Positions 42,239 through 45,460 of a stretch of DNA of 64,000 bases are shown one piece after another; position 1 is the stretch's first letter, and each line of letters opens with the position of its first letter. A program made the translations under genes and the position numbers. The notes under the pieces were generated by a model. It saw only the letters and a list, made by a program, of their open reading frames with translations. It did not search any database and was not told the DNA's origin. The stretch comes from Gammaproteobacteria bacterium (lineage in GTDB: Bacteria; Pseudomonadota; Gammaproteobacteria; Burkholderiales; Sulfuricellaceae). The stretch spans positions 304,178 to 368,177 of the forward strand of contig JAHJGO010000016.1 of assembly GCA_018824405.1 (NCBI GenBank), written 5' to 3'.

Positions 42239-45200
42239 ATGTCCCTTGATAAACAAACCATCTTCGCAAAAACGCCCAAAGGTATTCTCGAATCCAAGGG
42301 GCGCTGGAGTCTTTTTGCCAGCACTTCGCAAAAGGTACTGGCGCTGATAGACGGGATTTCCACGCTTGAACAGCTATTGGCAGCGTCGGGGATGAAAGAA
42401 AATAAATTTCTGGCTGAGGTGGAAACCTTGCTGCAGGACAGGCTGATTCGCGAATCCTGGACTCCGAATGGCATGTTTACCATCAACGCAGCGCCTCATG
42501 CGCCCCAGGGGATTCAGGTTGCAGTCGAGAATACTCAGGCGTTTATGGAGGCGGTTGAGAAGCAGAAATCCGGCAATAAGAACAAGAAAGAGCTGGAAGA
42601 GGATTTGCTGTCCTTTGACGATATTGAGGAAAAGTTGCGCAGGGAATCCGAGCAGTTGGCCAAGAGAGAGGATGCGACGCGCCAATTGCAGGTTGAGGCA
42701 AAGGTAAAGAAAGACGCCGAGCAGAAGGCGCGTGAGGAAGGAGATCGCAAAAAACGCGAAGCGGCCGAACTCAAGTCCCGTGAGGAGGCTGAGCGCCTCG
42801 CCCGGGAAGCGGCCGAGCGTAAAGTACAGGAGGAAAAGGAACAGAAGGCTCGCGCGGAGGCGCAAGGCAAGGCGCAGGAGGAAGAGGCGAAAAAGAGGGC
42901 AAAAGAGGAGGAAGCCCGCCTTGCACGGGAGGAAGCCGAGCGCAAAGCTCGCGATGCAAGACTTGCGAAGCGGCTGGAGGCGCGCGAGAAAGAAAGGCTG
43001 CGCGCACTTGAAGCGGCGGAGAAGAAAGCAAAAGCGGAAGCGGAGCGCATCTCGATAAGGGAAGCGGAGCGAGTTGCCAAGGAAGAGGCCGAGCGCGCCG
43101 CAAGGGAAGAAGCCGAACGAATCGCACAGGAGGAAGCGGAGCGCAAGGCACGCGAAGAGACCGAACTCAGGGCGAAAGAGGAAGCGGAACGCCTTGCCCG
43201 GGAAGAAGCTGAACGAATCGCGCAGGAAGAAGCGGAGCGCAAGGCACAGGAAGAGGCCGAACTCAAAGCACGCGAAGAGGCCGAGCTCAGGGCAAAAGAG
43301 GAAGCTGAGCGCCTGGCCCGGGAAGAAGCGGAGCGCAAGGCGCAGGAAGAAGCGGAGCGCAAGGCGCAGGAAGAAGCGGAGCGCAAGGCACAGGAAGAGG
43401 CCGAACGCATCGCACGCGAAGAGGCCGAGCTCAGGGCAAAAGAGGAAGCTGAGCGCCTGGCCCGGGAAGAAGCGGAGCGCAAGGCGCAGGAAGAAGCCGA
43501 ACGCATCGCACACGAAGAGGCCGAGCTCAGGGCGAAAGAGGAAGCTGAGCGCCTGGCCCGGGAAGAAGCCGAGCGCAAGGCGCAGGAAGAAGCCGAACGC
43601 AAAGCGCGCGAAGAGGCCGAACTCAGGGCGAAAGAGGAAGCTGAGCGTCTTGCCCGGGAAGAAGCGGAGCGCAAGGCGCAGGAAGAAGCCGAACGCATCG
43701 CACGGGAAGAGGCCGAGCTCAAGTCCCGTAAGGAGGCTGAACGCCTCGCCCGTGAGGAGGCTGAACGCCTCGCAAGGGAGGAAGCAGAGCGCATCGCACG
43801 CGAAGAGGCCGAACTCAGGGCGAAGGAAGAAGCGGAACGCCTTGCCCGGGAGGATGCAGAGCGAATCGCGCAGGAAGAAGCCGAGCGCAAGGCGCGTGAA
43901 GAAGTAGAGCGCAAAGCGCAGGAAGAATCGGAACGCAAAGCGCGTGAAGAGGCCGAACTCAGGGCGAAAGAGGAAGTAGAGCGAATCGCCCGGGAGGAAA
44001 CCGAGCGCAAGGAGCGGGAAGCGGTCGAGCGCAGGTTGAAAGAGGAAGCGGCGCTTCTGGTTCGCGAAGAGGCAGAAGCGACGGAACTTAGAGCTAAAGC
44101 GGATGCTGAGTATGAGGCGCTCGATCAGATAACGCGCTCATTTCCCGTGGAAGATGACGTCACCGTGTATGAGGAGGTTCCCGTGCATGAGGCCGTCCCC
44201 ATGCATGAGGAGGTTGAGCCTGGTCAGCGGTTTGCCAAGGTACTTCCCATTCTTAAATGGAGCGCGGCAGGGATTCTGATACTGCTGATCATCGGTTTGG
44301 CCGGGATTCATTTCGTTACGCTCACTTCAACCCAGAAACGGATTGAAACACTGGTAAGCGCGAGGCTGGGCGAGCCGGTGAAGATGCAATCCTTGCACAT
44401 CACACTCTTTCCATCACCCTACCTCAAACTCAGGCAAGTCGAAATTGGCTCCCAGGCTGGTGTTCGTATTGCAGATGCCCGTATATATGCAGGATGGGGA
44501 ACACTGCTTGGCGACGGCCGCCGGGTCGAACGCATTGAGCTGGAGAAAATTGATCTGGCTGCCGGCGTGCTGGAGAATATGGCTACCTGGCCAGCAAAAA
44601 GTGTGCAGCAGCAGCCCGCCTATGAAATTGGCCAGATAAGCTTCCGCCAGGCAAGTATCGAAGCGGGTGAAGGGGTTCCCCCTCCATTCAGTGGCGAATT
44701 GATTTTTTCAGCTCCGGGGCATATTGAAAAGGCCAGGCTGGAGAGCGAGGATGGTGCGCTGAAAGTGGATTTCTCGCCCGCGGCGGAAGGTCTGGGAGTG
44801 TCTGTCAGCGTACGTGACGTTATTTTGTCGAGCTTCCTGCCGGTCCGCATCGATTCCCTGCAGGCCGCGGGTACGGTAAGCGGCAGGCAAATCCGCTTTG
44901 CCGAACTGAAAGGCAGCAGTCATGGCGGAAAAGTGAGCGGATCATTGCACCTTTCCTGGGATCGGGACTGGTCTGCAAATGGAGATATTCGCATTGTGGG
45001 GGCGAGTATTGCCCCTTCGTCCGGGGCGTCTGATAAACCCTCCGTGTCGGGCAAGTTCGAAGCCGCGCTATCTTTCACGCAGCAGGCAAAAACACCGGGA
45101 AATCTGTTCAGATCGCCGGTAATGACCGGCACTGCAACGCTGCAGGCGGGCAAGGTGGTCGGGTTCGATCTGCCTGCAGCTATTCACTATGGTGTCGAAG

Positions 45201-45460
45201 CGATTTATAGCGCGCACACTGATTTTGATACCTGGGCATTCAAGCTTGAACCGCTTGGCGACAAGCAGGCTTACAAATCGTTGCGAATCGTCGGGCCGGA
45301 TCTGCAACTCGATGGCAGCGCCGAGGTTTCCGCCAAGGGGGCAATATCCGGAGCGGTGAAAATGCAGGTGGAAACCAAGAAAAAGTTGGTTCGCGGCAAC
45401 TACACCCTGGGCGGAACGCTCGAGCGTCCAACCATTCGCCCTGCCGCGTTGTCGAAATGA
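42239..45460 (+). CDS. AsmA-like membrane protein with 480-residue E/R/K/A octad-repeat rod
   Basis: A 1073-residue protein with an unusual build. Residues 1-85 (SKTPKGIL-like start, SQKVLALIDGISTLEQLLAA, LLQDRLIRES) form a small winged-helix-like head as seen at the start of some PilZ/PatA-type betaproteobacterial proteins. Residues about 140-625 consist of 8-residue units of the form EEAE-R-x-A-[RQK]. The alternation of Glu with Arg/Lys at i+4 predicts a stable single alpha-helix. One membrane helix is at 672-696 (AAGILILLIIGLAGIHFVTL). The last 370 residues are AsmA-like (RLGEPVKMQSLHITLFPSPY, GSSHGGKVSGSLHLSWD). There is no signal peptide, so the rod should be cytoplasmic and the AsmA part periplasmic. 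AsmA proteins move lipids or affect outer-membrane assembly. No homolog of the full fusion comes to mind. Confidence 0.8.
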   Translation: MSLDKQTIFAKTPKGILESKGRWSLFASTSQKVLALIDGISTLEQLLAASGMKENKFLAEVETLLQDRLIRESWTPNGMFTINAAPHAPQGIQVAVENTQAFMEAVEKQKSGNKNKKELEEDLLSFDDIEEKLRRESEQLAKREDATRQLQVEAKVKKDAEQKAREEGDRKKREAAELKSREEAERLAREAAERKVQEEKEQKARAEAQGKAQEEEAKKRAKEEEARLAREEAERKARDARLAKRLEAREKERLRALEAAEKKAKAEAERISIREAERVAKEEAERAAREEAERIAQEEAERKAREETELRAKEEAERLAREEAERIAQEEAERKAQEEAELKAREEAELRAKEEAERLAREEAERKAQEEAERKAQEEAERKAQEEAERIAREEAELRAKEEAERLAREEAERKAQEEAERIAHEEAELRAKEEAERLAREEAERKAQEEAERKAREEAELRAKEEAERLAREEAERKAQEEAERIAREEAELKSRKEAERLAREEAERLAREEAERIAREEAELRAKEEAERLAREDAERIAQEEAERKAREEVERKAQEESERKAREEAELRAKEEVERIAREETERKEREAVERRLKEEAALLVREEAEATELRAKADAEYEALDQITRSFPVEDDVTVYEEVPVHEAVPMHEEVEPGQRFAKVLPILKWSAAGILILLIIGLAGIHFVTLTSTQKRIETLVSARLGEPVKMQSLHITLFPSPYLKLRQVEIGSQAGVRIADARIYAGWGTLLGDGRRVERIELEKIDLAAGVLENMATWPAKSVQQQPAYEIGQISFRQASIEAGEGVPPPFSGELIFSAPGHIEKARLESEDGALKVDFSPAAEGLGVSVSVRDVILSSFLPVRIDSLQAAGTVSGRQIRFAELKGSSHGGKVSGSLHLSWDRDWSANGDIRIVGASIAPSSGASDKPSVSGKFEAALSFTQQAKTPGNLFRSPVMTGTATLQAGKVVGFDLPAAIHYGVEAIYSAHTDFDTWAFKLEPLGDKQAYKSLRIVGPDLQLDGSAEVSAKGAISGAVKMQVETKKKLVRGNYTLGGTLERPTIRPAALSK
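42700..44100 (+). repeat. 24-base coding tandem repeat
   Basis: The DNA behind the octad repeat keeps a 24-base register for about 1.4 kb. For example CCGAGCTCAG recurs at 43281, 43425 and 43521, distances of 144 and 96, both multiples of 24. Units are imperfect, with longer near-identical blocks of about 100 bases, which points to repeated unequal exchange. No frame is lost. The opposite strand shows long open frames purely because of this regularity. Confidence 0.85.

Follow-up and report, generated by a model that had tools for sequence, protein, structure and literature searches.

The window analysed in this work, a stretch of 64,000 nucleotides from contig JAHJGO010000016.1 of a Gammaproteobacteria bacterium (order Burkholderiales, family Sulfuricellaceae), carries one open reading frame (ORF) at positions 42239-45460 (+), which encodes a 1073 amino acid (aa) protein composed, in this order, of a head, a long charged rod, an acidic hinge, a hydrophobic helix and an AsmA-like domain. 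We place at somewhat less than an even chance (a probability of about 0.47) the reading that this protein is an inner-membrane tether, in which a cytoplasmic rod formed by a single alpha-helix would hold a protein-docking, winged-helix-like head up to ~77 nm out, while the AsmA-like domain would handle lipid in the periplasm. Sequence comparisons indicate that proteins of this type occur in many betaproteobacteria. The parts of the protein and their positions are as follows.

42239..42463, + strand: winged-helix-like head, residues 1-75 (KTxKG ... LIDGxST ... L..L)
42518..42550, + strand: conserved segment VAVENTQAFME, residues 94-104, in which F102 does not vary among the 34 rows of alignment A4, most of them from close kin
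42590..44122, + strand: charged rod, residues 118-628, likely a single alpha-helix by its charge and seam statistics
43082..44041, + strand: strict octad array of 40 units, consensus EEAERKAR, residues 282-601
44123..44257, + strand: acidic, proline-containing hinge, residues 629-673, between the rod and the hydrophobic helix
44142-44215: 36-base tandem pair inside the hinge
44258..44317, + strand: single hydrophobic (predicted membrane) helix, residues 674-693, hydropathy 2.47
44324..45457, + strand: AsmA-like domain, residues ~696-1073, mostly beta strands in the AlphaFold2 (AF2) model, with a PF05170 match over its cut-off and a TamB profile match

The Octad Repeat

Between residues 115 and 640, residues eight positions apart are identical at a frequency of 0.533; when the sequence was shuffled 1000 times, this frequency averaged 0.191 and never exceeded 0.239. 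When every stretch of the window that runs for 150 or more codons without a stop was scanned for its best lag of 5-12 over 130 residues, a lag identity above 0.2 was found in only 4 of the 133 stretches, all four of them over the rod DNA, and Tandem Repeats Finder reports here a 24-base array of 39.8 copies (43080-44033). Within residues 282-601 the octads carry E4 (40/40), E1 (39/40), A7 (37/40) and A3 (34/40), while residues 118-281 and 602-628 share the octad chemistry with slips of register. The original prediction for this DNA, which was made from its letters, had described about 480 residues of strict octads over 1.4 kb; a strict 24-base register does exist, but it covers only 40 octads (320 residues, ~0.96 kb), the larger figure having arisen because looser repeats were included. 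The other elements of that prediction, viz. the reading frame, the period of eight, the hydrophobic helix, the AsmA similarity, the winged-helix-like head and the single-helix-like character of the rod, were recovered by computation.

Mismatches between octads fall on codon positions 1, 2 and 3 at frequencies of 0.131, 0.230 and 0.530, so that third positions differ about four times as often as first positions. This excess shows that the copies are old and that the protein repeat has been held by selection, and it points to the + frame at 42239-45460 as the coding frame; the overlapping open frames at 42374-43513 (-), 42535-44010 (-) and 43074-43907 (+) inherit the 24-base period and were rejected as genes. 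At 0.15 nm per residue the strict array would, by arithmetic, extend ~48 nm (320 residues) and the whole rod ~77 nm (511 residues). Matches of the rod to Cornifin (PF02389, 29 bits, cut-off 34.8) and to eL29 structures in the PDB (best E 1.8e-4) were judged to be driven by composition and were set aside. Besides the gene and its opposite strand, the search of its own genome for other octad rods returned one match only, a charged stretch of weak similarity (25% identity across ~190 residues) in a 369-aa frame that lies where another contig begins (G000:C28:34-582).

Single Helix or Coiled Coil

Single alpha-helix domains are rich in charge, pair opposite charges at i,i+4 and lack a hydrophobic seam, and the octads of the window protein show all of these characteristics: per residue, opposite i,i+4 charges number 0.494, like charges 0.003 and heptad seams 0, and the best heptad register places large hydrophobics at 10% of a/d positions. 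The corresponding values are 0.435, 0.081, 0 and 17% for the single helix of Myo10, 0.091, 0.061, 0.121 and 80% for the GCN4 zipper, and 0.096, 0.044, 0.059 and 49% for the L156 coil. These charge and seam statistics favour a single-helix rod, as had been predicted. The resemblance to the single alpha-helix domains of myosin X, INCENP and other proteins extends to high charge, i,i+4 opposite pairs and the missing hydrophobic seam, whereas the strict octads, the bacterial origin and the predicted membrane attachment set the window rod apart. The protein resembles TolA in joining a hydrophobic helix to a long charged helical rod, and it gives weak repeat-driven NCBIfam matches; in the window protein, however, the rod precedes the helix and is predicted to be cytoplasmic, and an AsmA-like domain stands in place of the C-terminal domain that is TolA's own. 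Membership in TolA was rejected by NCBIfam score (24.8 of 213 and 18.5 of 59.45 bits).

It is unlikely, in our estimate, that the rod is instead a coiled coil of two or more helices, or a stacked helix bundle, which oligomerises the AsmA-like domain and whose cytoplasmic reach is incidental. Long charged helical regions are often coiled coils, and the start of the rod is less clear than the octads, since windows of 28 residues beginning at residues 118-126 reach up to 62.5% large hydrophobics at a/d. Within the octads, by contrast, the best such window reaches 38%, no seams are present and hydrophobic power at a period of 3.5 is 0.00. PMC5812594 bears on both sides of this question: it states that even-numbered motifs, if they aggregate, would rather stack than intertwine, which counts against a lone helix, and that designed heptads with at least three alanines aggregated, compared with which the window octads hold about two alanines each. 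The same paper reports that E4[K/R]4 octads occur with extreme rarity among the single helices of eukaryotes.

The AsmA-like Domain and Its Predicted Membrane Helix

The predicted AsmA similarity survives a profile search, in which Pfam AsmA (PF05170) scores 33.2 bits against the whole protein and 36.1 bits against the domain alone, with a gathering cut-off of 29.8. The same profile is matched at E 0.01 or better by 33 of 36 members of the family, and the family profile matches TamB at E 1.2e-5. The AF2 model of the domain (mean predicted local distance difference test score 82.7) consists mostly of beta strands, and its structural matches include LPD-3, VPS13, Atg2 and TamB. Like members of the AsmA family, the window protein carries one hydrophobic helix directly before its beta domain; it differs from them in having only ~380 residues after this helix and a 670-residue arm before it. 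Its genome also encodes separate AsmA (761-aa frame), YhdP (1310 aa) and TamB (1290 aa) matches over their cut-offs.

A single membrane helix had been anticipated near residue 672, and hydropathy exceeds 1.8 in one segment only, at residues ~674-693. Its predicted orientation, with the rod in the cytoplasm and the AsmA-like domain in the periplasm, agrees with the charges of the family but not with those of the window protein: in counts of ~20 residues on each side of the helix, 78 of the 89 distinct family sequences, a set that includes many close kin, are more positive on the N-terminal side, whereas the window protein, one of the 11 exceptions, carries a net charge of 0 before the helix and +2 after it and thus does not obey the positive-inside rule. 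Known AsmA-type proteins are N-in. On account of both the family preference and this precedent, we retain the N-in topology as a prediction.

The Head Domain

The head was predicted to be winged-helix-like, and its structural model, with the element order strand-helix-helix-helix-helix-strand, and its profile matches agree on this assignment; HTH_47 is matched by 13 of 34 member heads at E up to 0.1. The scanned proteins match only generic winged-helix families in this region, or none, besides stray weak matches such as NACHT, and the head (KTxKG ... DGKST) therefore looks like an unnamed betaproteobacterial winged-helix-like domain. Its identity with a ribosomally synthesized and post-translationally modified peptide (RiPP) recognition element, or PqqD, was rejected by element order, b-a-a-a-a-b in the model instead of the bbb-aaa that PMC12710340 treats as definitional.

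Many of the Pfam and PDB profile matches of the heads are DNA-binding winged helices (HTH_47, HTH_24, MarR and Lrp-type), and the net charge of the heads averages +2.3 (range -10 to +5). Both observations would suit a DNA-binding head, with the protein anchoring DNA or acting as a one-component membrane regulator whose sensor is the AsmA-like domain. We consider this improbable, and we infer that the head would have a protein, and not DNA, as its ligand, because the third helix has a net charge of zero or below in 30 of 34 members and because receiver, cyclic-nucleotide-binding and cyclase domains are also found joined to the same head.

The fusions to receiver or cyclic nucleotide monophosphate-binding domains are found in L148:3240-3986, L163:2261-3274 and L156:2251-3465. 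In L089:6343-8538 (genome G057), one frame joins the head, a Guanylate_cyc domain (29.4 bits, cut-off 21.9), a short charged stretch, the hydrophobic helix and the AsmA-like domain; this gene lies downstream of a gene that appears RelA-like by eye. Small proteins of ~160-250 residues combine the head with another region (L140-L145, L150-L153, L162 and L164-L167), for which no Pfam match over cut-off was found in the three that were scanned (L140, L144 and L150), and two such genes lie side by side in L144, L145 and L167.

Distribution and Variation of the Rod

Forty genomic regions, picked mainly for long frames, were compared with the window. By motif, 35 of the 40 show the full layout, a single frame in which the head is followed by a linker, the hydrophobic helix and the AsmA-like domain; 34 of these possess a rod, and in the remaining one, L089, the linker is largely the cyclase domain. 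The other five regions comprise an over-extended frame with a divergent head (L072), three loci cut by contig ends (L053, L054 and L055) and a short headless paralogue (L088). The AsmA-like part is matched in 124 of 300 genomes of the order, counting long and short frames, and the head profile in 79 of 150. The head occurs in a frame of at least 720 aa in 42 of these 150 genomes, each of which also has a long-frame AsmA-like match (compared by eye). Across the phylum the head profile is matched in 13 of 199 genomes, the 8 outside the order having frames of at most 266 aa. Close relatives of the window protein that are named in databases belong to Sulfurimicrobium and Sulfuricella, and Sulfuricella denitrificans skB26 has the homologue P0022. 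We found no prior description of this head-rod-helix-AsmA-like architecture in the listed titles and abstract openings of the open PMC literature, which leaves subscription journals mostly outside.

Among 36 linkers (the 35 loci, L089 included, and the window), measured crudely from 100 residues after the start of the head to 5 residues before the helix and hence with hinges included, length ranges from 246 to 1171 residues with a median of 571 (570 in the window); the longest, in the relative L060, would extend up to ~175 nm if fully helical. When lags 5-11 are compared, 8 scores highest in 31 of the 36 linkers, and a charge period of 7.5-8.5 is present in 28. The length of the rod is thus loose and its chemistry is kept. 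Near-copies (at least 98.7% identical over the C-terminal region) differ by multiples of 8 in 7 of 9 pairs of unequal length, though the pairs share members. The P0002 protein is identical to the window protein except that exactly 80 residues, or 10 octads, are missing from it, and its contig is 240 bases shorter; the repeat number of the array (43082-44041) is thus not fixed, whether through population variation or an assembly difference.

Rodless head-AsmA-like proteins are also found, of which 8 were seen. In a rapidly built tree of 47 AsmA-like domains, which was supported only by the Shimodaira-Hasegawa-like approximate likelihood ratio test (SH-aLRT) and has many open forks, the presence of a rod is clustered (4 label changes against a shuffled mean of 10.9, with 0 of 500 shuffles as low), and L146, which lacks a rod, falls in one group with two rod-bearing proteins (SH-aLRT 99), so that the rod was either lost there or gained more than once. 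The head and the AsmA-like domain look like the core of the protein and the rod like its adjustable part. The variation in length, the whole-octad differences between near-identical orthologues and the rodless relatives could likewise be produced by a neutral, expanding low-complexity repeat that is tolerated in the linker without a role of its own, but we find this the least probable of the alternatives, since the third-position excess between octads denotes purifying selection and since period 8 and charge pairing persist in members whose AsmA-like domains are as little as 19-27% identical to that of the window protein.

Proposed Mechanism and Its Significance

The tether is built on features that can be read directly from the sequences, viz. 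the four parts, the octad repeat and the recurrence of the same architecture across the order, and on predicted ones, viz. the N-in topology, the single helix, the winged-helix head and the beta-rich AsmA-like fold. The order-wide architecture, with rods of widely differing length and versions without a rod, fits the tether idea. Rod length would change by gain and loss of repeat units, and the rod would therefore set the reach of the head and not an exact distance. Binding of the head would place or gate the AsmA-like domain, as the domains with which the head is fused suggest. With its ~380 residues the AsmA-like part is short compared with YhdP or TamB, and it would hence function at the inner membrane or together with another protein. 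A more specific version of this mechanism, which we hold to be doubtful, is signal-gated lipid handling, in which a cytoplasmic head that also occurs in phosphorelay, cyclic-nucleotide and cyclase proteins, carried on a telescoping charged helix, would couple cytoplasmic signalling to the AsmA-like domain across the inner membrane of betaproteobacteria.

A number of results weigh against the tether. The PF05170 match spans only profile positions 3-137 of 607; the VIA Z scores of the AsmA-like model for VPS13, Atg2 and TamB (6.8-7.2) are tied with those of outer-membrane barrels; and in a Foldseek search neither the head model nor the AsmA-like model reached E 0.001 with any PDB structure, TamB ranking first for the latter at E 0.078. 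The charges flanking the helix of the window protein itself are those of an exception, as described above. The head of the window protein has no winged-helix Pfam match of its own, its one match, to NACHT (E 0.039), falling below the cut-off, and a head-cyclase fusion was verified once only, so that the link to signalling is one of association. With respect to the rod, lag 8 is not the best lag in 5 of the 36 linkers (the cyclase-bearing L089 among them); change in length by whole octads was rejected as a general rule, as it is seen in 13 of 119 pairs below 98.5% identity, as expected by chance; and some lineages can do without the rod, as the rodless proteins indicate. No operon partner emerged from the 25 largest ORF clusters of the 40 regions and the window, in which no neighbour is shared beyond lineage-level synteny (by eye, valS-like genes in 4 loci, mutL-like in 6 and miaA-like in 5).

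AsmA-superfamily proteins are proposed to be phospholipid transporters to the outer membrane. Polar recruitment of YhdP, TamB and YdbH in Escherichia coli is described in PMC12977461, and a role in lipid transport is proposed for these three proteins in PMC8912898 and PMC12977461. How AsmA-superfamily proteins are placed or regulated is an open question. If the tether is real, then a widespread AsmA relative with a predicted cytoplasmic arm, and with a head that is shared with signalling proteins, would offer a handle on this regulation from inside the cell. The rods are, in addition, long natural bacterial candidates for octad single helices, with a natural series of lengths for testing.

Neighbouring Genes

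The two genes that flank the ORF (DUF5619 at 41390-41806 and DUF202 at 45497-46045) are both on the opposite strand, and the gene accordingly stands alone. A response regulator and a histidine kinase lie within the window at 38810-40840, and genes for two-component regulators or NtrC-like proteins are seen by eye near the AsmA-like gene in L056, L057, L058 and L064. In the window, at 46224-46736 (+), and likewise in genome G002 (L052:9453-10040), the AsmA-like gene has downstream of it a gene that looks lipoprotein-like by eye.
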